DNA of 25,322 nucleotides from a virus. Positions 1,669 through 24,075 of the stretch are shown here, in pieces (position 1 is the first letter of the stretch; the number at the start of each line of letters is the position of its first letter). A program made the position numbers and the translations under genes. The notes under the pieces are model-generated. The model did not search any database and was not told the origin of the DNA. It saw nothing but the letters and a program-made list of their open reading frames with translations. The stretch is from positions 1-25,322 of IMG/VR virus record IMGVR_UViG_3300041405_000157, one strand, 5' to 3'.

Positions 1669-2150
1669 GAGAATAACCCTCCTGCTGCGGCGCTCACCTT
1701 CCCGGCGGCGGTAACTGCTGCACCCTGCATGGCAGACAGCTGATCACTGAGGCTGCCGAACATTTCCCCCAGTGATTCATCGGTGCGCTTCAGCGTCAGC
1801 GTGAATTCAATGCGGCGGCACACGCCGCTGCTGAAGAATTCCGCTTTGGTCTGACTCAGGCTTTCAATCACGAACATGCCGTAAATTGTCCCGCTGCCCT
1901 CAATAAGCGGCCACGCGCGGCCCAGCTCTGCAATCTGCTCCAGCGCAAACAGCGACAGCCTGCCGCCGGTAATCTCCGGCAGCAGCACGCCGGAAAGCGT
2001 CAGCGTGTCGTTGTCCGGGCCTAAGAACTGCAGCGACGGCCTCACCCCAACGCGGCTGTTAGACGGAAAACGCCAGCTGCGCTGATACTGCAGTTCCTGA
2101 TAGGGCACCGTCCTCAGCATGAAAACAAATAAGCCCAGCGTCATCATCAT
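1665..2150 (-). CDS. U: Tail completion protein gpU
   Basis: A 161-residue protein matching P2 gpU (about 159), which has a role in tail assembly. Recognisable segments are the N-terminal MLRTVPYQELQYQRSWR and the GMFVIESL strand near residue 95. Three tandem ATG codons follow a GGAGGG ribosome site; the first, at 2150, also shares a base with the TAA of T, so T, U and D are translationally linked. The gene appears intact and gives no sign of damage, unlike its upstream neighbour T. Confidence 0.92.
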   Translation of the reverse strand: MMMTLGLFVFMLRTVPYQELQYQRSWRFPSNSRVGVRPSLQFLGPDNDTLTLSGVLLPEITGGRLSLFALEQIAELGRAWPLIEGSGTIYGMFVIESLSQTKAEFFSSGVCRRIEFTLTLKRTDESLGEMFGSLSDQLSAMQGAAVTAAGKVSAAAGGLFS

Positions 2151-4004
2151 TACTCAAACCCTCCCCTGTCCCGGTAACTGCTGCGGGCGCGGGCCTGCGC
2201 CTGCCGCTCTTTTGCCTCTATCCTGCGCATCACTTCATCAACCAGATCCTGCTGGCTCTGCCCCGGCTGCTGCACAATGGTGAAGGAGGCGTGAATCTGT
2301 GGCGCAGCTCCCTGTGCAGCACTGCCACTCATGCGCGGTGCTTCCTGCCGGTACGCCTGAACCGGCAGGCTGAGCGGGTGCAGCGGCTTAGCCTCCGCCG
2401 TCGCTCCGGCACCGCCCAGCGTCAGCGCCGCCAGTGCTGCAAGCCGTGCAGTGCTCCGGCGGCTGGTCACGTTTGCCGGACCGCTGACCAGCTCCGGCCC
2501 GTTCTCACCGGCCACGCCGAACTTCCCGGACGGGATGAAGCCACCGGTGTCGTACATGCCCGCAAATCCGGGGAACCCGCCCGGCGGCAGGGATACACCG
2601 CCGCCCGTTTTTACTGTCGCCGGTCGCGGCAGCTGCGGCCCGCCGGTCTTATCACCGCCCGGCTTCAGAAAGTCCGGCAGGTAGTCGGTCAGGGACGACA
2701 GCTTGTTTTTAATCGCATCCCACTTCTGACTGATGCCCGCCATCAGGCCGTCAATCATCTGTGAACCTGCTTCCTGAAAACGCGCGGGCAGCGCCTTCGC
2801 GTCGGCGACAATCTCCCCCCACTTTGTGCTGATGTAGGTGCGGATCGCGGTCCAGATACTGCTGACCTTTGTGCTGATAGCGTCCCAGATGGCGGCAAGT
2901 TTCGGTCCCAGCGTGTCCCAGTTCTGCCAGATAAGCAGCGCCCCGGCGGCAATCAGCCCGATAACGGCCAGAATCGGGTTTGCCATCATCAGCCGTCCCA
3001 GCCACAGCACGCCGTTACCCACGAAGCCGATGGCACTTTTAATCAGCCCAAAGGAGCTAAATGCTTTTATCCCCAGCACGTTAAAGCTGAACCTGAGCAA
3101 AGCAAGCGGTCCAAAAAAAGCCGCGAGGCTCACCAGAAAAGCCCCGGCACCCAGCACCAGTAATGAGAGAACGGCGGCAGTCTTAACCAGCGTTCCGGCC
3201 AGCTCCTTGTTATTTTCCACCCAGCGACGGGTCACGCCGGTGACTTTCTTCACCATGTTCATGATGTCCATCAGAGGCGTGCGCAGCGAATCACCCAGGC
3301 CGCTCATGGTGTTGGAAACGCCGGTTTTGGTCAGCATCCACTGTGCAGAAAGCGAGTCCTTATTGATGTCCGACTCTTTCTGCATGGAGCCTTTCGCCCC
3401 GTCGCCCTGCGTCAGCTGCAGCTGCCGCACCGGCACCGGCCACGCGATCGCGCACCTCAAGCGTTCGGGAATATCGCTCACGTACCGCGCTCAGCTTTGC
3501 CTGCCGTTCTCCCAGCTTTTTAAGCGACTGCTGCTGCCGGTCAATGGCGGCGCGCGCCTCGTCCGACTGACTTTTCAGCTCGCGCTGCGCCTGGCTCAGT
3601 TTCTTCGTGTCGATACCGGCAGCGCCCAGCGCCTCACGCTGACGCTGCACCGACAGGCGCAGCCCGTTGTAGGTCTGCTGCAGCTGGCTGGCGCGGTTTT
3701 TTGCCTGCTCCAGCACGCGGGCCTGCGCAGCAGTGGGCCTGTTTGTTTCCGTAAACTGCACGGCCAGCCGCGCCGCTTCTTCGCGGGCGGCTTTAAGGTT
3801 GTTAGCAGTGATGGCAAGCTGTGAGCGGGTCTTGCGAAAGCCGTCAATGCGCCCGGCCTGCGCGTCCAGCTCTTTAAGGGTGTTGCGGGTATCGCGCAGC
3901 GTGCCAGCCAGCTCACGCGTGCTGTCGCGGGCGCTGCGGAAGGGGCGCGTCAGCTTATCGACCGCGCCCAGCACGACCTGTAAACGCAGATTTTTATCAC
4001 TCAT
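2150..4004 (-). pseudogene. T: Tail tape-measure protein gpT, internally deleted and out of frame
   Basis: The tape measure sets tail length. Two frames carry its parts. The N-terminal frame (start 4004, MSDKNLRLQVVLGAVDKL, then a coiled-coil rich in Q/R/A) matches the family up to about residue 185 near 3430 and then runs into unrelated residues, stopping at 3360. The C-terminal part lies in another frame from about 3425 (GDGAKGSMQKESDINKDSLS) to 2150, with hydrophobic segments (LVKTAAVLSLLVLGAGAFL) and the usual ending. Together they give under 600 residues, against about 800 or more in relatives; the conserved central tape-measure domain is absent. The junction falls in a GCAGCTGCAGCTG run near 3412-3427. 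A deletion between short repeats is the likely cause; an assembly collapse is the alternative. Confidence 0.85.
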
Positions 4005-5023: not shown

Positions 5024-6193
5024 TTATGCGCTGACGCGGCTGCTGAAATCGACCAGGTACTGGTCAGTGATGCGCTGGCGCAGCAGCAGGTTTTCCAGTG
5101 GCGGCACCGGCGTGTAGTCGTAATCGATCAGCAGCTTGCCCGCTTTAAGCGTGTCTTTATCGTTCACGCTCTCGTCCAGCCAGCAGTCCGCGCCAATCAG
5201 ATAGCCCTGATTCACCAGGCTGCGCAGCTTCGCGCGGATGCTTTCGATGATGTCGCGGGCCAGTGACGGGTTCAGCGCGCCGTCAACGGACCACATCTGC
5301 GCTTCAGCCATCGTGTCCATGAGCACCTGCGCGGTGCGGGTGTAACACTCAAACTGAAAGAGCGCGTCATCACTGAGGCAGCGGGAACCCCAGAAGCGGA
5401 AGCCGTCTTTACGGATCAGCGTGGTGATGTCGTTCTGGTTCAGCAGGCCCGCGTCAGTGGCCGGATCCTGCAGGTCCCAGAAGACGTCTTTTGAAATGCC
5501 GGTGACGCCGTTCACGCCCACGTTTGACAGGGACTTATGCCAGCCGGTCTGCTCGTCGATTTTGGCACGCAGGCCCAGCGCGCGGGCGGTAGCATAGGCC
5601 GTTGCGTCCGCCTTCAGCACGGTGTCAAAACTGATGAAGTCAGGCCAGATCAGCATCCCTTCGCGCTGGCTGAAGTTGCTGCGGTAGGCAATCGCCTCTT
5701 CAACGCTTTTGCAGCCATACGCGGACAGGTAGGCAAAGCCGCGCAGGCTCTGCGCCACGCTCAGCAGCTCGGTGGCGACGGCTTTGGTGTCGTGCCCCGG
5801 TACGCCCAGAATGCGGGGCTTTACGCCGCACACGGACTGCGCGGCCAGCAACGCTTTCATGCCGGTGCGCTGGCCGTCGGTCACGCCACCGATGATGTTA
5901 GCTGTAGTTTCCGCTTCAGTTTCGCCCTGCGGCACGCGCACAACGACTGTGACGGGTTTCGACTGGTCCGCGATGGCGTCCAGTGAACGGGCCAGCGTGC
6001 CGGACTCCCCGGCCTTGCTGCTGGCGGTGAGTACATCGGTTAACAGCACCGGGCGGTTTAGCGGGAAGGTGGCCGCGTCGGCGTCGTCGCCGGTGCAGAC
6101 CAGCCCGACAATCGCGGTGCTGACGGTGGTGATGGTTCGGGTGCCCTCGTTGATTTCCTCAACGCGCACGCCGTGGTGATAATCCTGTGCCAT
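5024..6193 (-). CDS. FI: Tail sheath protein gpFI
   Basis: This is the contractile sheath subunit. It has 389 residues against 396 in P2, opens with [21 protein letters not shown] and has the sheath-family segments [22 protein letters not shown] (residues about 200-222) and [20 protein letters not shown] (about 272-291). It is the first gene of the FI-FII-E-T-U-D-ogr transcription unit. Its promoter probably lies in the end of the invertase gene, where an Ogr box is centred about 80 bases upstream of the ATG. It looks intact. Confidence 0.95.
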
Positions 6194-6238
6194 GTGGCGG
6201 TTCTCCTGTGAAGGGGTTCCGCTATGGTCTATGGTCCG

Positions 6239-6862
6239 CTATGACGGGGCACGCGCTGGCTGTTGTGCCATACCTGACACAACAGGCGCGCCGTTTTCAC
6301 GCAGGGTTTTCTGTTCCGGGGCGGGGATATAGCGGTAAAGCGTCTTCACTGACACGTCCAGCACCAGTGACACCTGCAGCAGCGTTGCGCCCTGCGCCAG
6401 CATCCGCCGGGCACGCTCCACCGTTTCCGGCGTCATCTTCCGCCGCCTGCCACCGATGCGCCCTTTATCACGCGCAGCGGCCAGCCCGGCACGGGTGCGT
6501 TCTACGATCAACTCGCGTTCCATTTCCGCCAGGGCACCCATAACATGGAAGAAAAACCGCCCCATTGGCGTACTGGTATCGATGCTGTCTGTCAGGCTGC
6601 GAAAGTTTACACCGCGTTCGCGCAGTTCTTCAGTCAGCATGACCAGGTGGCGCATACTCCTGCCCAGCCGATCCAGCTTCCACACAATCAGCGTGTCGCC
6701 CGACTGCAGGCAGCGCAGCGCCTTTTTCAGCCCCGGCCTGTCGCTGGTTTTTCCGCTTATCCTGTCCTCGAAAATCAGCTCACAATCTGCGCTCTGCAGC
6801 GCAATCCTTTGTAAGTCCGTGTTCTGGTCATTTGTTGACACCCTGATGTAGCCAATCAGCAC
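6239..6862 (-). CDS. Site-specific DNA invertase, Gin/Cin/Hin family serine recombinase
   Basis: This 207-residue serine recombinase belongs to the family that flips tail-fibre segments in Mu, P1 and e14. The catalytic serine is in IRVSTNDQNTDLQ (Ser9); the conserved arginines lie in KLDRLGRSMRHLV (about 62-74). The long helix MGALAEMERELIVERTRAGL (about 108-127) and a C-terminal helix-turn-helix (TLLQVSLVLDVSVKTLYRYI, about 159-178) follow. Length is typical (about 190-200). It sits beside a 26-bp crossover-like site at about 6926-6952 and the stump of a fibre segment. Only one crossover site remains, so it probably no longer has an inversion to perform here. Confidence 0.93.
   Translation of the reverse strand: MLIGYIRVSTNDQNTDLQRIALQSADCELIFEDRISGKTSDRPGLKKALRCLQSGDTLIVWKLDRLGRSMRHLVMLTEELRERGVNFRSLTDSIDTSTPMGRFFFHVMGALAEMERELIVERTRAGLAAARDKGRIGGRRRKMTPETVERARRMLAQGATLLQVSLVLDVSVKTLYRYIPAPEQKTLRENGAPVVSGMAQQPARAPS
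6260..6285 (-). promoter_or_regulatory. Ogr/Delta activator box for the FI operon
   Basis: An 8-bp perfect inverted repeat, CTGTTGTG (6260-6267) and CACAACAG (6278-6285), separated by 10 bases, contains the family consensus TGT-N12-ACA. P2-type late promoters carry this about 55 bases before the start of transcription, which here would be near 6217, leaving a leader of some 24 bases before FI. A possible -10 (CATAGA, minus strand 6233-6228) lies in the right area. The box is inside the last codons of the invertase gene. Confidence 0.75.
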
Positions 6863-6922
6863 GCTGAGTTCTCCGCAAATGGCCGCAAGTTTGCCAGTGC
6901 GGCCCGGCGCAGGGCCAGGCGT

Positions 6923-7212
6923 TTGTTTCTCAGAAACCTCGGTATTAGCGAAAAGTTTTCTGGCAGACTTTTGCGTACTGTAGTGATGACCGTTTCCGGC
7001 AATTACACGCCCGATCCTGCAGCTACAAAGGTGCGTTGCCAGATAGTCGGTGCCGGTGCCAGTGGAAGCAGTCCCGCTACGGTTAATGCCGCCTCATATA
7101 CTGCGGCCGGTGGCGGCGGTGGCGGTGGCGGTTTTGTAGAATTTGAAATTGATCTGACAAAAGCGAAGGTTAATAACATCCCGGTAATTATTGGCCTGGG
7201 CGGTGCAGCCGT
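6923..7212 (+). pseudogene. Stump of an inverted tail-fibre C-terminal segment
   Basis: Reading on the plus strand from the crossover site gives FLRNLGISEKFSGRLLRT, then SGNYTPDPAATKVRCQIVGAG and a run of eight or so glycines, ending near IIGLGGAAV. This is the common glycine-rich tail-fibre tip region. It points opposite to the rest of the tail genes, as expected for the silent alternative segment of an invertible fibre cassette. Continuity is lost near 7212: beyond this the frame (RCVRRRRKAAS...) is only the reverse strand of the lysis gene. There is no proper start codon because the constant N-terminal part is missing. Confidence 0.8.
6926..6952. other. Crossover (gix/cix/hix-like) site for the DNA invertase
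   Basis: A 26-bp imperfect dyad begins TTCTC, has AAACC-TC-GGT at its centre and ends CGAA. The central AAACC.. ..GGT with a two-base core is the hallmark of Hin/Gin/Cin recombination sites, and it lies about 65 bp from the invertase start, as in Mu and P1. It falls inside the first codons of the fibre stump (FLRNLGIS), exactly where such sites sit in fibre genes. The partner site is gone with the deleted fibre genes. Confidence 0.75.
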
Positions 7213-7439
7213 TAGCCGTTGCGTTCGGCGGCGGCGTAAAGCTGCGTCTGCGCCTGGCTGCTGGTCTGCGTCAGGATGTTCAGGGCAATCAGCTGGCTGT
7301 TTTTCTGGCTCAGCTTTTTTCCCTGAGTTTCTATGACTGCCTCATGCGCGTGAATCTTCTGATAGGCGTTGTGCAGGTTCCACGACTGCCACAACACAAT
7401 CCCCAGAAAAAAAAGAACCATCACGATGATGTTCTTCAT
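7212..7439 (-). pseudogene. Rz/LysB-like spanin gene, truncated at its 3' end
   Basis: The ATG at 7439 follows a GGGAG site by nine bases. The product has one N-terminal membrane segment (MKNIIVMVLFFLGIVLWQS) and a charged, Gln-rich helical part, typical of i-spanins such as Rz and P2 LysB. It stops after AAAERNG at 75 residues, about half the expected length (P2 LysB about 141). The end coincides with the start of tail-fibre sequence on the other strand, so the C-terminal half and any overlapping o-spanin (LysC) have been removed by deletion. A functional outer-membrane disruption step is unlikely. Confidence 0.75.
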
Positions 7440-7443
7440 GTGC

Positions 7444-7953
7444 TCAGACTCCCTTAAGGCACCATGCCAGTTCACGTCCGCGCCGGTTATCCAGCCCCTG
7501 ATTGAATACGCCTTTCACGTACACCCAGCGCGGCAGCTGGTAACACGCCTCGCGCCACTGGCCCTTTTTCAGCAGCACCACCATTGTGGAGCCGCACACG
7601 TTGCCGGTTCCCACGTTGAACGCCAGCGACACCAGCGCGTCATAAACCTGCTGCGGCATCGAGACCGCCACGCAGCGCGCCAGTGCCGCCTCGGTGCGTA
7701 GCACGTTGGTGATAAAATTCCCCGCAGCCTGCCGTTCCGTGATGGATTTACCCGGCACCACGCCGGACGTGTTGCCGATCCCGTCGGTCCACTTTCCCGC
7801 GCTGCACTGGTAAGGCTGCAGGCGGCAGCCCTCATAGTCGGCAATCAGCCGCAGCCCCTCCACGGAGGTATGCAGCAGCTGAAAACCGGGCATCGTGGCA
7901 GCCAGCGCCAGCACCACGCCCACGGCGCAGCGTTTAACGGTTTGCAGATTCAT
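7444..7953 (-). CDS. K: Endolysin (lysozyme, GH24) with signal-anchor-release N-terminus
   Basis: This muramidase cuts peptidoglycan at lysis. Counting from the upstream GTG (7959), the catalytic triad is Glu43-X8-Cys52-X5-Thr58, the E/C/T variant of the T4-lysozyme triad in which Cys replaces the usual Asp. A weakly hydrophobic stretch rich in Ala and Gly (residues about 11-29) is typical of SAR endolysins, which wait in the membrane until the holin collapses the membrane potential. The ATG at 7953 is preferred: a GGAG lies five bases upstream. It overlaps the end of the holin gene. Two Cys pairs (45/52, 65 and the C-terminal ones) could control folding after release. Confidence 0.88.
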   Translation of the reverse strand: MNLQTVKRCAVGVVLALAATMPGFQLLHTSVEGLRLIADYEGCRLQPYQCSAGKWTDGIGNTSGVVPGKSITERQAAGNFITNVLRTEAALARCVAVSMPQQVYDALVSLAFNVGTGNVCGSTMVVLLKKGQWREACYQLPRWVYVKGVFNQGLDNRRGRELAWCLKGV

Positions 7954-14661: not shown

Positions 14662-15306
14662 TCAAGGGCTAGATAATTGCCAATGCTGCTCAACAGACAA
14701 CAATATTTGAGGCAGTTCTTTTAACTGGTGATAAATTCCTTCAACCACATGTTCATGTGTGCGCCCACGACCAAGACAGGTCCTTAATGCGCTATCCACA
14801 CGAAACTCTCCTTGAAAGGCAATGCTCGCCTTATCGTTTATGTGATCGAGAGATAACTCATTAATAAGAAAGCAGATGACTTGCTCTAAACAGACAAATC
14901 TATTATTTAAAGAAGCTTCTTCAATAAAACCAGTTTCAGAAATGGCTTTTAAAAATCGCTTGTCACCTGAAAGTAATAAATCATGGTGATTCAACAAACC
15001 TTGCACTAAACGCATTTCACCTTCGTCAAGGTTATCGAAACTATTTTGAAGGTTGATTAACCTTGAATCGGTAATTAGTTCTCCAAATAGTAAAAAATCA
15101 CCTTGAGCTATACAATATTTGACGCGCTCAATAGCTTCAGTACCGTATCTGCGCAAAGCTGCTTTACCTTTGAGCTGATACACCAATGTATCTAATACAT
15201 ATAACTGGCCATAGTTTCTTGTGAGTAATTTGCAACCATCAGCAAGCAGATCTAATTGGGCCAATTTCAGTACTACATCATTATCAAGTAATACAGCCAC
15301 TGGCAC
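14662..15306 (-). CDS. PIN-like domain protein (putative RNase/toxin partner)
   Basis: This 214-residue protein has the layout of a PIN-fold nuclease: an N-terminal acidic strand AVLLDNDVVLKLAQL (Asp8, Asp10), a central LDEGEMRLV (Asp94, Glu97) and SGDKRFLKA (Asp115). These acidic residues would bind metal for RNA cleavage. The C-terminal 90 residues are not recognised. The GTG start shares one base with the stop of the metalloprotease gene upstream (TAGTG), so the pair is one operon with coupled translation. Base composition is AT-rich relative to the phage structural genes, suggesting separate acquisition. PIN-like proteins beside ImmA/IrrE-type proteins occur in candidate toxin-antitoxin loci; the exact subfamily and function here are inference. 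Confidence 0.6.
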   Translation of the reverse strand: MPVAVLLDNDVVLKLAQLDLLADGCKLLTRNYGQLYVLDTLVYQLKGKAALRRYGTEAIERVKYCIAQGDFLLFGELITDSRLINLQNSFDNLDEGEMRLVQGLLNHHDLLLSGDKRFLKAISETGFIEEASLNNRFVCLEQVICFLINELSLDHINDKASIAFQGEFRVDSALRTCLGRGRTHEHVVEGIYHQLKELPQILLSVEQHWQLSSP

Positions 15307-16322
15307 TAAACCTCGATGTTGTTCATTTTGCAGAGCATTTCGAACTTATCTTCCGAAACTTTATCTTCGTCAACGTATTCCAAAAAGGTTCGGTTAGCTT
15401 GCTCAGCCCATGTCAAATTGGGATAGATAATGTTCAATGCGCTAAAGCAAACGGGATAATAGTTTCCACCATTGCGACCCATTGTCTTCGCATAGTTAAG
15501 AGCAACATGACCCGGATCAACCTGATTTTGTCGCGCGATACGAAGAGCGCCATCGGCTAGTACATCTGCAGTCACCCTAAAACGACTGTAAAAAGATGCA
15601 TCAGGGCGACCATTCAACAGTTCAATAGCGAATGCGTTTGCTTCAATTTCTTGCGGATTATCAACGTCATCTTCATTAATTTTTTCATCAATTAGTAATG
15701 AGTTACGTTCGAGGTGACCACATGCAATATGTCCTAGTTCATGCGCCAAACTGAAGAGCAAAGCACTAGCGTGTTTTTGCCTTTTTGTTAAGGCAATGAC
15801 CGGACGTTCTGAAACTTTAATAGCAACAGCATCCATTTTTTTTCTTGCTGGAATTTCAGGCATATAAAGAACTGGAATACCCATAGACCATGAATATTCC
15901 AAAAGTGCCTGATAGTCTACCCACGGCTTGCCGCTCGATAATATTAATTGACGAATATCACTAGCAGTTGGAAGCTCATTGTAATCATTTTTTACAACTG
16001 TCGCAGCTATTTTTGCCATACCGTCCACAACTGCAGTAGCAGCCTGAAGCTCTGCTACAGGTTTATTAGCTGCATGCTTATATCTACGAACTGAATCATT
16101 GAATCGCAGCGGTGTGGCAGGGTTAAGTACAGCATTAAGATCTAGATTGGCAAATTTTGCCAATCCTAAAATTACCTGCTGACTAATGCTCGGTGACTGA
16201 TTCAATGAATCGTCCCACCAATCAGGGAGTAACTTAGCTAAACCTTCAGCCAATCGTCTATCGAGAGTGCTGACTCGGTTTAAAAAAGCATTAAGAGGTT
16301 TTTGATGGATAGTTACAGTCAT
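15306..16322 (-). CDS. ImmA/IrrE-family metalloprotease (COG2856-like)
   Basis: The 338-residue protein carries a zinc-protease motif His194-Glu-Leu-Gly-His198 in LFSLAHELGHIACGH, and the follow-up EIEANAFAIELL (Glu225/Glu227), which supplies the third ligand in ImmA/IrrE proteins. Such proteases cleave or sense DNA-binding regulators (ImmR in ICEBs1, DdrO in Deinococcus). The first 75 residues are helical (SISQQVILGLAKFANLDLNAVL) and could be a degenerate Xre-like domain; no clear helix-turn-helix is visible. A very good ribosome site (AAGGAGGGG) precedes the ATG. It is first in an operon with the PIN-like gene. Whether it is antitoxin, activator or sensor for that protein cannot be told from sequence. 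Confidence 0.78.
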   Translation of the reverse strand: MTVTIHQKPLNAFLNRVSTLDRRLAEGLAKLLPDWWDDSLNQSPSISQQVILGLAKFANLDLNAVLNPATPLRFNDSVRRYKHAANKPVAELQAATAVVDGMAKIAATVVKNDYNELPTASDIRQLILSSGKPWVDYQALLEYSWSMGIPVLYMPEIPARKKMDAVAIKVSERPVIALTKRQKHASALLFSLAHELGHIACGHLERNSLLIDEKINEDDVDNPQEIEANAFAIELLNGRPDASFYSRFRVTADVLADGALRIARQNQVDPGHVALNYAKTMGRNGGNYYPVCFSALNIIYPNLTWAEQANRTFLEYVDEDKVSEDKFEMLCKMNNIEV

Positions 16323-16497: not shown

Positions 16498-16609
16498 ATG
16501 CAGGTGCATGACATAAGCAAAAGCCCGCCAGTACTGGCGGGCCGGAGGGCTAACGATCCTTCTGGGATCATGCGAATTCATGCAGCATAGACATGCACTC
16601 ACGCGCATG
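16498..16609. repeat. Cluster of CATGC motifs beside cos
   Basis: CATGC or its complement GCATG occurs six times in 112 bases: 16498, 16506, 16569, 16579, 16592 and 16605. The cluster starts 25 bases from cos and ends at the next gene. P2 terminase needs sequence beyond the cut site, so these may be terminase-binding repeats. The 290-base stretch 16323-16612 holds no gene; it contains the operon promoter, cos, this cluster and the palindrome at 16523. Confidence 0.45.
16518..16542 (-). terminator. Palindrome, probable leftward terminator
   Basis: A 20-bp perfect palindrome GCCCGCCAGTACTGGCGGGC (16523-16542) is followed on the minus strand by TTTTGC. It would stop leftward transcripts from the dinI operon before they cross cos and enter the PIN cassette. 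The T-run is short, so a structural role next to cos is also possible. Confidence 0.65.
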
Positions 16610-16612
16610 GAG

Positions 16613-16879
16613 TCAGAACAGTGACAGGTTATTATCCAGGGATATGTATTTCACATCAGCAGGGACAGAATTTTTCACCGCCTGGAGGTATAAAAGTCCC
16701 TGTGAAAGAGAAACAGGGGCCGGGATTTCAAGCCAGAAAACACCATCATAAGTCCGGCCTAACCAGAATCCGCCGCCGTTCTCTTTTGGCCGCTGAAAGA
16801 AGACCAATCCGCCAGGCGCATAATCAGTCAGGCTTTCGCCCCGATAAACTACCTGATAATTTGAATCGCTACCGGCCAT
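16613..16879 (-). CDS. Small hypothetical protein, last gene of the dinI operon
   Basis: An 88-residue product without recognised family. It is aromatic-rich and beta-like (LVFFQRPKENGGGFWLGRTYDGVFWLEIPAP), with no signal peptide or membrane segment. A GAGG lies nine bases before the ATG. It lies 73 bases downstream of dinI in the same direction, ahead of the palindromic terminator, so it is probably co-expressed from the LexA-controlled promoter. In phage 186 the equivalent operon includes the antirepressor Tum; this protein is much shorter (Tum about 146 residues) and shows no visible similarity, so any antirepressor role is speculation from position. Confidence 0.6.
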   Translation of the reverse strand: MAGSDSNYQVVYRGESLTDYAPGGLVFFQRPKENGGGFWLGRTYDGVFWLEIPAPVSLSQGLLYLQAVKNSVPADVKYISLDNNLSLF

Positions 16880-16952
16880 TGCCTAACGCCTCGCAAAGCT
16901 CGTTGTTCAACCTTGCCAGCGCCAAAAATGAATTTTGACGCCAGCAACGTTA

Positions 16953-17192
16953 TCAGTGTTGGTACTGCCAGCTGTCGTCTTCCCATACTGCCTGCAGAAT
17001 ATCCATAACGTTCTTTTTATCATCGTCCTGCCTGACGCCGCTCAATGTGACGCCATTTGCGCTTCCTTTGCGGATGCGGATATTAGTATCAGGATAAAGT
17101 GGAAGAAAATTCTTATAAAGTTCGGCCTCAAGAGCTGAGAGAATTTCCGTGCTGATTTTTTGCTCTTTATTAATCATTATCTCAATACGCAT
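16953..17192 (-). CDS. dinI: DinI-like SOS modulator
   Basis: A 79-residue DinI-family protein. The start MRIEIMINKEQKISTEILSALEAEL and the end VMDILQAVWEDDSWQ match the DinI pattern (N-terminal strand, helix, then an acidic C-terminal helix that mimics DNA and binds RecA). Phage copies such as Orf97 of 186 sit in LexA-controlled operons. It follows the 62-residue gene by nine bases. The LexA box at 17413-17428 controls both. Confidence 0.88.
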   Translation of the reverse strand: MRIEIMINKEQKISTEILSALEAELYKNFLPLYPDTNIRIRKGSANGVTLSGVRQDDDKKNVMDILQAVWEDDSWQYQH

Positions 17193-17201
17193 AAGATCCT
17201 C

Positions 17202-17390
17202 TCAGTGGTGCTCTACTTCATTGTTATATGTTTTAGCCTTTCTAACTTCGGCCATTAGCTCACTGGATAATTCCACTAACCAGTGAATAGCCATCTCTTT
17301 CTCTTCAAAATCGCAAGTGCCAAAAGCAACTTTTTTCAGAATGAAATCAATACGCTGGAGTTTAATTTCTTCCAGTAGATAATCGTTCAT
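17202..17390 (-). CDS. Small hypothetical protein, first gene of the SOS operon
   Basis: A 62-residue acidic, helical protein (MNDYLLEEIKLQRIDFILKK, then MAIHWLVELSSELMAEVRKAK). A GGAGG site lies four bases before the ATG. It has no recognised family. As the first gene after a near-consensus LexA box, it should be strongly induced by DNA damage. It may be a regulator acting on CI or a DinI partner, but nothing in the sequence shows this. Confidence 0.65.
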   Translation of the reverse strand: MNDYLLEEIKLQRIDFILKKVAFGTCDFEEKEMAIHWLVELSSELMAEVRKAKTYNNEVEHH

Positions 17391-17412
17391 TTGTCCTCCC
17401 TCGACGCAATAA

Positions 17413-17428
17413 CTGTATATGCGTACAG
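17413..17428 (-). promoter_or_regulatory. LexA box over the dinI-operon promoter
   Basis: CTGT-N8-ACAG (17413-17428) within AACTGTATATGCGTACAGTA differs from the ideal SOS box at few positions. On the minus strand a TATACT -10 (17432-17427) overlaps its edge, with TTTCAC 16 bases upstream as a possible -35. LexA binding would block this promoter. The remaining stretch 17433-17586 up to gene A shows nothing else clear. Confidence 0.9.
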
Positions 17429-17586
17429 TATAGTAAGAGAAAAAAAATGTGAAATGTTTTTTACGTTCAATCAGCAGTAGTCTTAAAAAATTACCGCATC
17501 AACGCTGATTTCAACCTCCTAATTTGATTGAATAAAACGATAACAGCTTTCTGACACCGGCTTCGCTTACGTGAATCACATCTTAA

Positions 17587-23505: not shown

Positions 23506-24075
23506 ATGGAGTTTACAACTGGAGGCAAAGAGGTGGTTCACCGCTTGCTGGAAGCTTATGGCTTTAGAACGAGACAGGCGCTATGCGACCAATTTGGCGT
23601 TTCAAAAAGCACCATGGCGTCTCGCTATTCAAGAGACATTTTTCCGGCAGATTGGGTCATACAGGCTGTTATTGAAACAGGTGTAAATATTGAATGGCTC
23701 GCTTTTGGCAGAGGCGTCAAGTACTCAAATGAAAACCACGCTGCCAAAAAAATCCCGAGTGTAAGATTAGAAAGCGGAGTTCTTTCCAATGGCGAACTTC
23801 TTTTTGTTGATAAAGAGTTGTTCCCTGACGTCTTACGTGATCCGCATGTGCTGTTCATTGGTAATGGCCGCTATATCGTTGATTTAGCACCTAGCGATAT
23901 TATCGACGGCTTATGGTTGGTTGAAATAGACGGCAAAGCATCACTACGCGAAATAATGCGCTTACCCCAACAGAGAATCAGAGTATCCAATGAGAGCGGC
24001 ACATTTGATTGTCACATCAATGACATCAAATTAAAGGGTCATGTGGCCCTTGTAATGCGTAAAGAGAGTGCGTAA
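23506..24075 (+). CDS. cI: Lysogenic repressor CI (186 type)
   Basis: CI keeps the prophage silent by binding the early promoter. The 189-residue product (186 CI 192) has an N-terminal helix-turn-helix (TRQALCDQFGVSKSTMASRY, 22-41) with the family sequence NIEWLAFGRG following, and a C-terminal oligomerisation domain (LLFVDKELFPDV, GLWLVEIDGKASLREI). I see no LexA/lambda-type Ala-Gly cleavage site with Ser/Lys dyad, in keeping with 186 CI, which is removed by an antirepressor rather than by RecA. A GAGGGG precedes the ATG. cI and int are separated by three bases and share a transcript. Confidence 0.9.
   Translation: MEFTTGGKEVVHRLLEAYGFRTRQALCDQFGVSKSTMASRYSRDIFPADWVIQAVIETGVNIEWLAFGRGVKYSNENHAAKKIPSVRLESGVLSNGELLFVDKELFPDVLRDPHVLFIGNGRYIVDLAPSDIIDGLWLVEIDGKASLREIMRLPQQRIRVSNESGTFDCHINDIKLKGHVALVMRKESA

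Follow-up and report, generated by a model that had tools for sequence, protein, structure and literature searches.

A putative prophage induction operon in the split-Tum layout, and the LexA-linked phrog_2100 family of small proteins to which its third gene belongs

The window analysed here is a stretch of 25,322 nucleotides (IMG/VR record IMGVR_UViG_3300041405_000157) that we read as a dormant P2/186-type phage. We propose that its minus-strand operon of three small genes, which follows the split-Tum layout, serves to induce the prophage in the SOS response and that TumA would inactivate the CI repressor. This is the best explanation of the sequence data, and we give it a probability of about 0.85. 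Upon DNA damage, LexA would be inactivated and tumA, tumB/dinI and a gene of 88 codons would be transcribed from one promoter. TumA would then bind the non-cleavable 186-type CI and strip it off its operators, opening the way to lytic growth. As for the other two products, DinI would tune RecA filaments and be dispensable, while the 88-aa protein would be a passenger whose target is probably other than CI, most likely a host DNA-damage function.

A split tum locus behind a LexA box

As read from the sequence, open reading frames of 62, 79 (dinI) and 88 residues lie on the minus strand downstream of a LexA box and a TATACT element, exactly where the initial annotation had placed them. The LexA box CTGT-N8-ACAG of the operon promoter (CTGTATATGCGTACAG, 17413-17428, minus strand) is the sole strict match within the window and is overlapped by the -10 element TATACT (17427-17432, minus strand); a consensus scan returned no convincing -35. 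A Shine-Dalgarno sequence, AGGGAGGA, is present at the operon. The 62-aa gene, tumA, occupies positions 17202-17390, tumB/dinI positions 16953-17192 and the third, 88-aa gene positions 16613-16879, all on the minus strand; this last gene lacks its own LexA box and relies on the promoter of the operon. Between it and dinI, a hairpin of 15 bp including G-U pairs is predicted (16913-16947, minus strand) and is kept in most relatives examined. One possible role of this hairpin may be partial termination, like that of t95a in phage 186. At the operon end, after the 88-aa gene, a consensus scan identified a terminator-like hairpin with a T-rich tail (16522-16543, minus strand); the scan returned 2 sites versus 1.5 in shuffles, and this one rests on its position.

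A single LexA-box match alone is not beyond chance in the window. Indeed, 0.32 occurrences of CTGT-N8-ACAG are expected in a window of such size, and at least one was found in 30 of 100 shuffles. We take the box as real because its position is conserved upstream of tumA: the strict CTGT-N8-ACAG is found within 150 nt in 220 of the 244 distinct tumA upstream regions and the looser CTG-N10-CAG in 21 further ones, the background for the strict box being 1.3% of random 150-nt windows. Here as throughout, counts are of loci among the matches listed by the similarity searches and describe those samples. The SOS control that had been proposed for the operon is supported, LexA being its predicted regulator in vivo.

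In phage 186, the LexA-controlled tum gene lies after replicase A and encodes a 146-aa protein with a DinI-like second half, and Tum inhibits CI (PMC7708051). Lemire et al. (PMC3121763) describe tum as split in two in Fels-2 and PsP3 and, citing a personal communication, assign the antirepressor activity to the upstream one of the two PsP3 genes. At the place of 186 tum, PsP3 encodes tumA (60 aa) and tumB/DinI. The window shows the same Tum/TumA layout, its 62-aa gene standing after replicase A, under the LexA box and ahead of DinI. The initial annotation saw no Tum-like gene; this was wrong, as the 62-aa gene corresponds to the N-terminal half of Tum and dinI to its C-terminal half.

The 62-aa gene matches phrog_698. 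Single-sequence BLASTP of its product against Tum and PsP3 TumA returned no similarity, and profiles were used afterwards. Among 508 ORFs of the 186, PsP3 and Gifsy-1 stretches, a profile of window-type TumA has 186 Tum as its sole significant match (E = 2.6e-4), PsP3 TumA, present among these ORFs, not being significant by itself; hhalign aligns window-type TumA with Tum residues 4-42 (E = 1.7e-4). A Tum-N profile, in which 186 Tum was combined with four diverged TumA genes from the search started from CI (see below), recovers both window-type and PsP3-type TumA and zero unrelated ORFs among the 34,678 searched, the 62-aa gene of the window being found with an E-value of 0.0014. The two types match each other weakly (E = 0.023) and are joined through Tum. 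The Tum homology is significant with profiles only and not with pairwise BLASTP. TumA is predicted by AlphaFold2 to form a helical hairpin (pLDDT 83). As for the second gene, the window dinI matches Pfam DinI (E = 7.5e-21) and aligns to positions 71-149 of 151 in phrog_189, as expected of the C-terminal half of Tum.

On this homology, the 62-aa gene is TumA and likely the antirepressor of CI. The suggestion that the 62- or the 88-residue protein could be a new antirepressor can thus be retained in part: the antirepressor role would fall to the 62-aa gene, which is of the known TumA kind and not of a new one.

Four known systems stand closest to the operon. The tumA-tumB pair of Salmonella phage PsP3 shares with the window the LexA box and, after the replicase gene, a TumA some 60 aa long ahead of TumB/DinI. 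However, its TumA belongs to the other allele group, its CI has two HTH domains where that of the window has one, and it is in the window that an 88-aa third gene follows. In coliphage 186, tum has the same place, LexA control and a homologous CI, its halves corresponding to the 62-aa protein and DinI, but they are fused into one 146-aa protein instead of being two genes. Fels-2 (STM2728 and DinI) has the same layout with a 62-aa protein that is about 47% identical, while its CI is 36% identical and no 88-aa gene is listed. Finally, the dinI-gfoA/gftA operons of the Gifsy prophages also encode a LexA-controlled small antirepressor beside a dinI homologue (PMC3121763), but dinI comes first and the repressors are of another type. 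The TumA and 88-aa profiles gave no significant match among ORFs of at least 40 aa of the Gifsy-1 stretch, and homology of the small proteins to Gifsy-1 or N15 antirepressors was not found in the stretches searched.

TumA type and repressor type

The presumed target of TumA is a CI repressor of 189 aa (23506-24075, plus strand) with Phage_CI_repr and Phage_CI_C domains. Its residues 9-182, nearly the full length, align with the 186 CI structure 2FJR (E = 1.1e-29), and no Peptidase_S24 domain was found in CI or anywhere in the window. For a 186 CI homologue devoid of S24, cleavage by RecA is not expected. Thus, the earlier remark that CI lacks an obvious RecA-type cleavage site holds, and the sequence points to a non-cleavable repressor of the 186 type.

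Two TumA alleles, window-type and PsP3-type, are found among the relatives, and close relatives with the same replicase kind and the 88-aa gene carry a 61-aa PsP3-type TumA instead. Among 174 distinct loci with both genes, CI is nearest to that of PsP3 in 96 of the 100 loci with a PsP3-type TumA. At the window-type TumA loci, CI is nearest to that of the window or of Fels-2 in 67 of 74, to that of 186 in five and to that of PsP3 in two, the last seven including three truncated or tied calls. As the loci are related, co-switching was examined on a tree of the replicase gene, which lies between TumA and CI. Taking independent pairs that are supported and differ in TumA type, we found CI switching along with it in about 7 of 7 and in the opposite direction in none (p = 0.016). 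With an IQ-TREE replicase tree and 186-like CI grouped with the window type, 5.7 of 6 pairs co-switch (p = 0.031), so that the test comprises 6-7 supported pairs only. On a tree of the integrase, whose gene adjoins CI, the changes in TumA type are as few as on the CI tree. The link of TumA is therefore to the immunity module as a whole, in which CI is the obvious effector, though here inseparable from its neighbours. The co-switching lends indirect support to the proposed removal of CI from its operators by TumA. One locus, L274, is a clear exception to co-switching, as its CI is nearly that of the window and yet its TumA is PsP3-type; the pair may be naturally mismatched, this TumA may act across types, or the contig may be chimeric. 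Further exceptions to the pairing are L141, L265 and L271.

When the search is started from CI alone, a TumA is detected by profile after the replicase gene in 57 of 66 loci, these 66 being the ones with the replicase end covered. Five of the nine others have a LexA box there and, by eye, at least four of these five have a diverged TumA-like ORF. At locus L520, gpA is followed by a split TumA very like the N-terminus of 186 Tum, behind which lies a member of the 88-aa family that is diverged and shorter. The existence of two TumA alleles that track repressor type makes antirepressor-repressor specificity testable in 186-type phages. A class of P2-like prophages can be re-read, with the 62-aa gene that stands unannotated between gene A and dinI as the likely induction trigger.

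The third gene and the phrog_2100 family

The 88-aa protein matches the phrog_2100 profile (E = 1.7e-31, positions 1-72 of 85). Its relatives are spread over P2-like SOS operons, P22-like and other phages, phage-plasmids and, among the matches listed, 443 plasmid records; the family is carried on IncX2/IncU plasmids. In the literature on LexA-box genes of phages and plasmids we found nothing on phrog_2100, which is no proof of absence.

Of 70 distinct stand-alone copies of phrog_2100, i.e. those not behind tumA/dinI as judged from nearby tumA/dinI and from the leader sequence, 67 have their own strict LexA box at most 60 nt from the start, and the remaining three have a box with one mismatch. 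Left out of this count are fragments and short-flanked copies from tumA operons; another four copies, which have the operon leader but no tumA/dinI in reach, were counted apart. For comparison, a box stood at 19 of the 397 starts of other ORFs in a smaller set of loci analysed earlier. A TTGAN motif stands ahead of the box in 61 of the 70 stand-alone copies. Apart from the stand-alone copies, phrog_2100 mostly follows a LexA-controlled tumA; inside tumA operons it is usually found without its own box, behind the conserved hairpin. It is this family-wide link to SOS through LexA, as the box positions indicate it, that constitutes the new part of our analysis.

The family has a conserved core (Y-x-V-V-Y-R-G-E, V-F-F-Q-R and G-G-G-Y-W-L-G). 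With a loose pattern picked after seeing the data, 45 of the 51 stand-alone proteins and 46 of the 75 from operons have an acidic tail that ends in [FLY]xL. The DDDFxL-like tail of the 88-aa protein resembles the SSB tip, a visual lead only. The 88-aa protein has no relative among PDB sequences, and its AlphaFold2 model (pLDDT 64) gave no significant fold match (best PDB E = 0.11, best BFVD E = 0.17); weak SH2-like structure matches, none of them significant, were not trusted.

What the 88-aa protein acts on can be considered from its distribution. It might act in trans on other, resident prophages as their antirepressor, in the way that FsoA of Fels-1 acts on Gifsy-2 (PMC3121763), and the spread of the family over unrelated elements under LexA control would fit this precedent. 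We nevertheless consider it improbable: no homology of the 88-aa protein to TumA was seen and the Gifsy-1 and N15 stretches gave no significant match, a single conserved protein would need to fit many unrelated repressors, and the gene is kept on conjugative plasmids.

Even less probable is an antirepressor role of the 88-aa protein, by itself or jointly with TumA, against the CI of the window, the other half of the initial proposal. Its place in the same SOS operon, its size, which is that of the Gifsy antirepressors, and its LexA-linked family speak for such a role, but its distribution does not. Indeed, the 88-aa gene is found with both CI types, only 42 of the 170 loci with TumA and CI carry it, and its presence shows no co-switch link with TumA or CI type on the replicase tree. 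Moreover, S24 repressors are present in five of the tested phages that carry a stand-alone copy; the remaining ones, and likewise two conjugative plasmids, have neither S24 nor a 186-type CI. Since carriers without a 186-type CI exist, antagonising such a repressor cannot be the general function of phrog_2100, and we rejected this candidate on the distribution and co-switch evidence.

We would give roughly even odds to phrog_2100 being an unrecognised SOS family of mobile elements, carried as a rule behind its own LexA box by temperate phages of several kinds, phage-plasmids and conjugative plasmids (IncX2, IncU), with a conserved core and mostly an acidic C-terminal tail, that acts on a host DNA-damage or replication function and not on the repressor of its own element. 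In any case, the analysis exposes a small-protein family put under host SOS control by many phages and plasmids.

The place of DinI, and the neighbouring regions

Both halves being fused in 186 Tum, TumA could be a partner of DinI in RecA modulation and not an antirepressor. We regard this as very unlikely: at a strict search threshold DinI is not detected in 85 of the 170 loci that retain TumA and CI, and TumA type follows CI type. At two loci, L083 (7381-7958) and L091 (7751-8202), the 88-aa gene directly follows tumA with no DinI detected, so that dinI seems dispensable in the operon. The least credible alternative is that CI self-cleaves upon RecA stimulation and that the operon, which does contain DinI, only tunes the SOS response: the CI of the window, homologous to 186 CI, carries Phage_CI_C without an S24 domain, and phage 186 is induced through Tum (PMC7708051). 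An operon in which TumA would act on CI thus remains our preferred reading.

Elsewhere in the window, the tape-measure gene (2150-4004) is split over two ORFs that differ in frame (2150-3481 and 3360-4004) and lacks the part matching the middle of the profile, pointing to a deletion with a frameshift or to an assembly error. At 6193-7475, the baseplate/tail-fibre block expected beside the invertase (6239-6862) is absent and the lysis genes come directly next; a deletion, a collapse or a faulty assembly of the contig there is probable. Finally, the portal gene and the SOS operon are separated by a pair of minus-strand genes (14662-16322). One encodes a metallopeptidase of 338 aa and the IrrE/M78 kind (Pfam E = 3.7e-8; PADLOC PD-Lambda-2_B E = 1.9e-12), the other a phrog_15597 protein of 214 aa. 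In relatives the same slot holds other cargo, such as RloB-type genes in L010, and, given this variety, it looks like a cargo site for defence or toxin-antitoxin genes.
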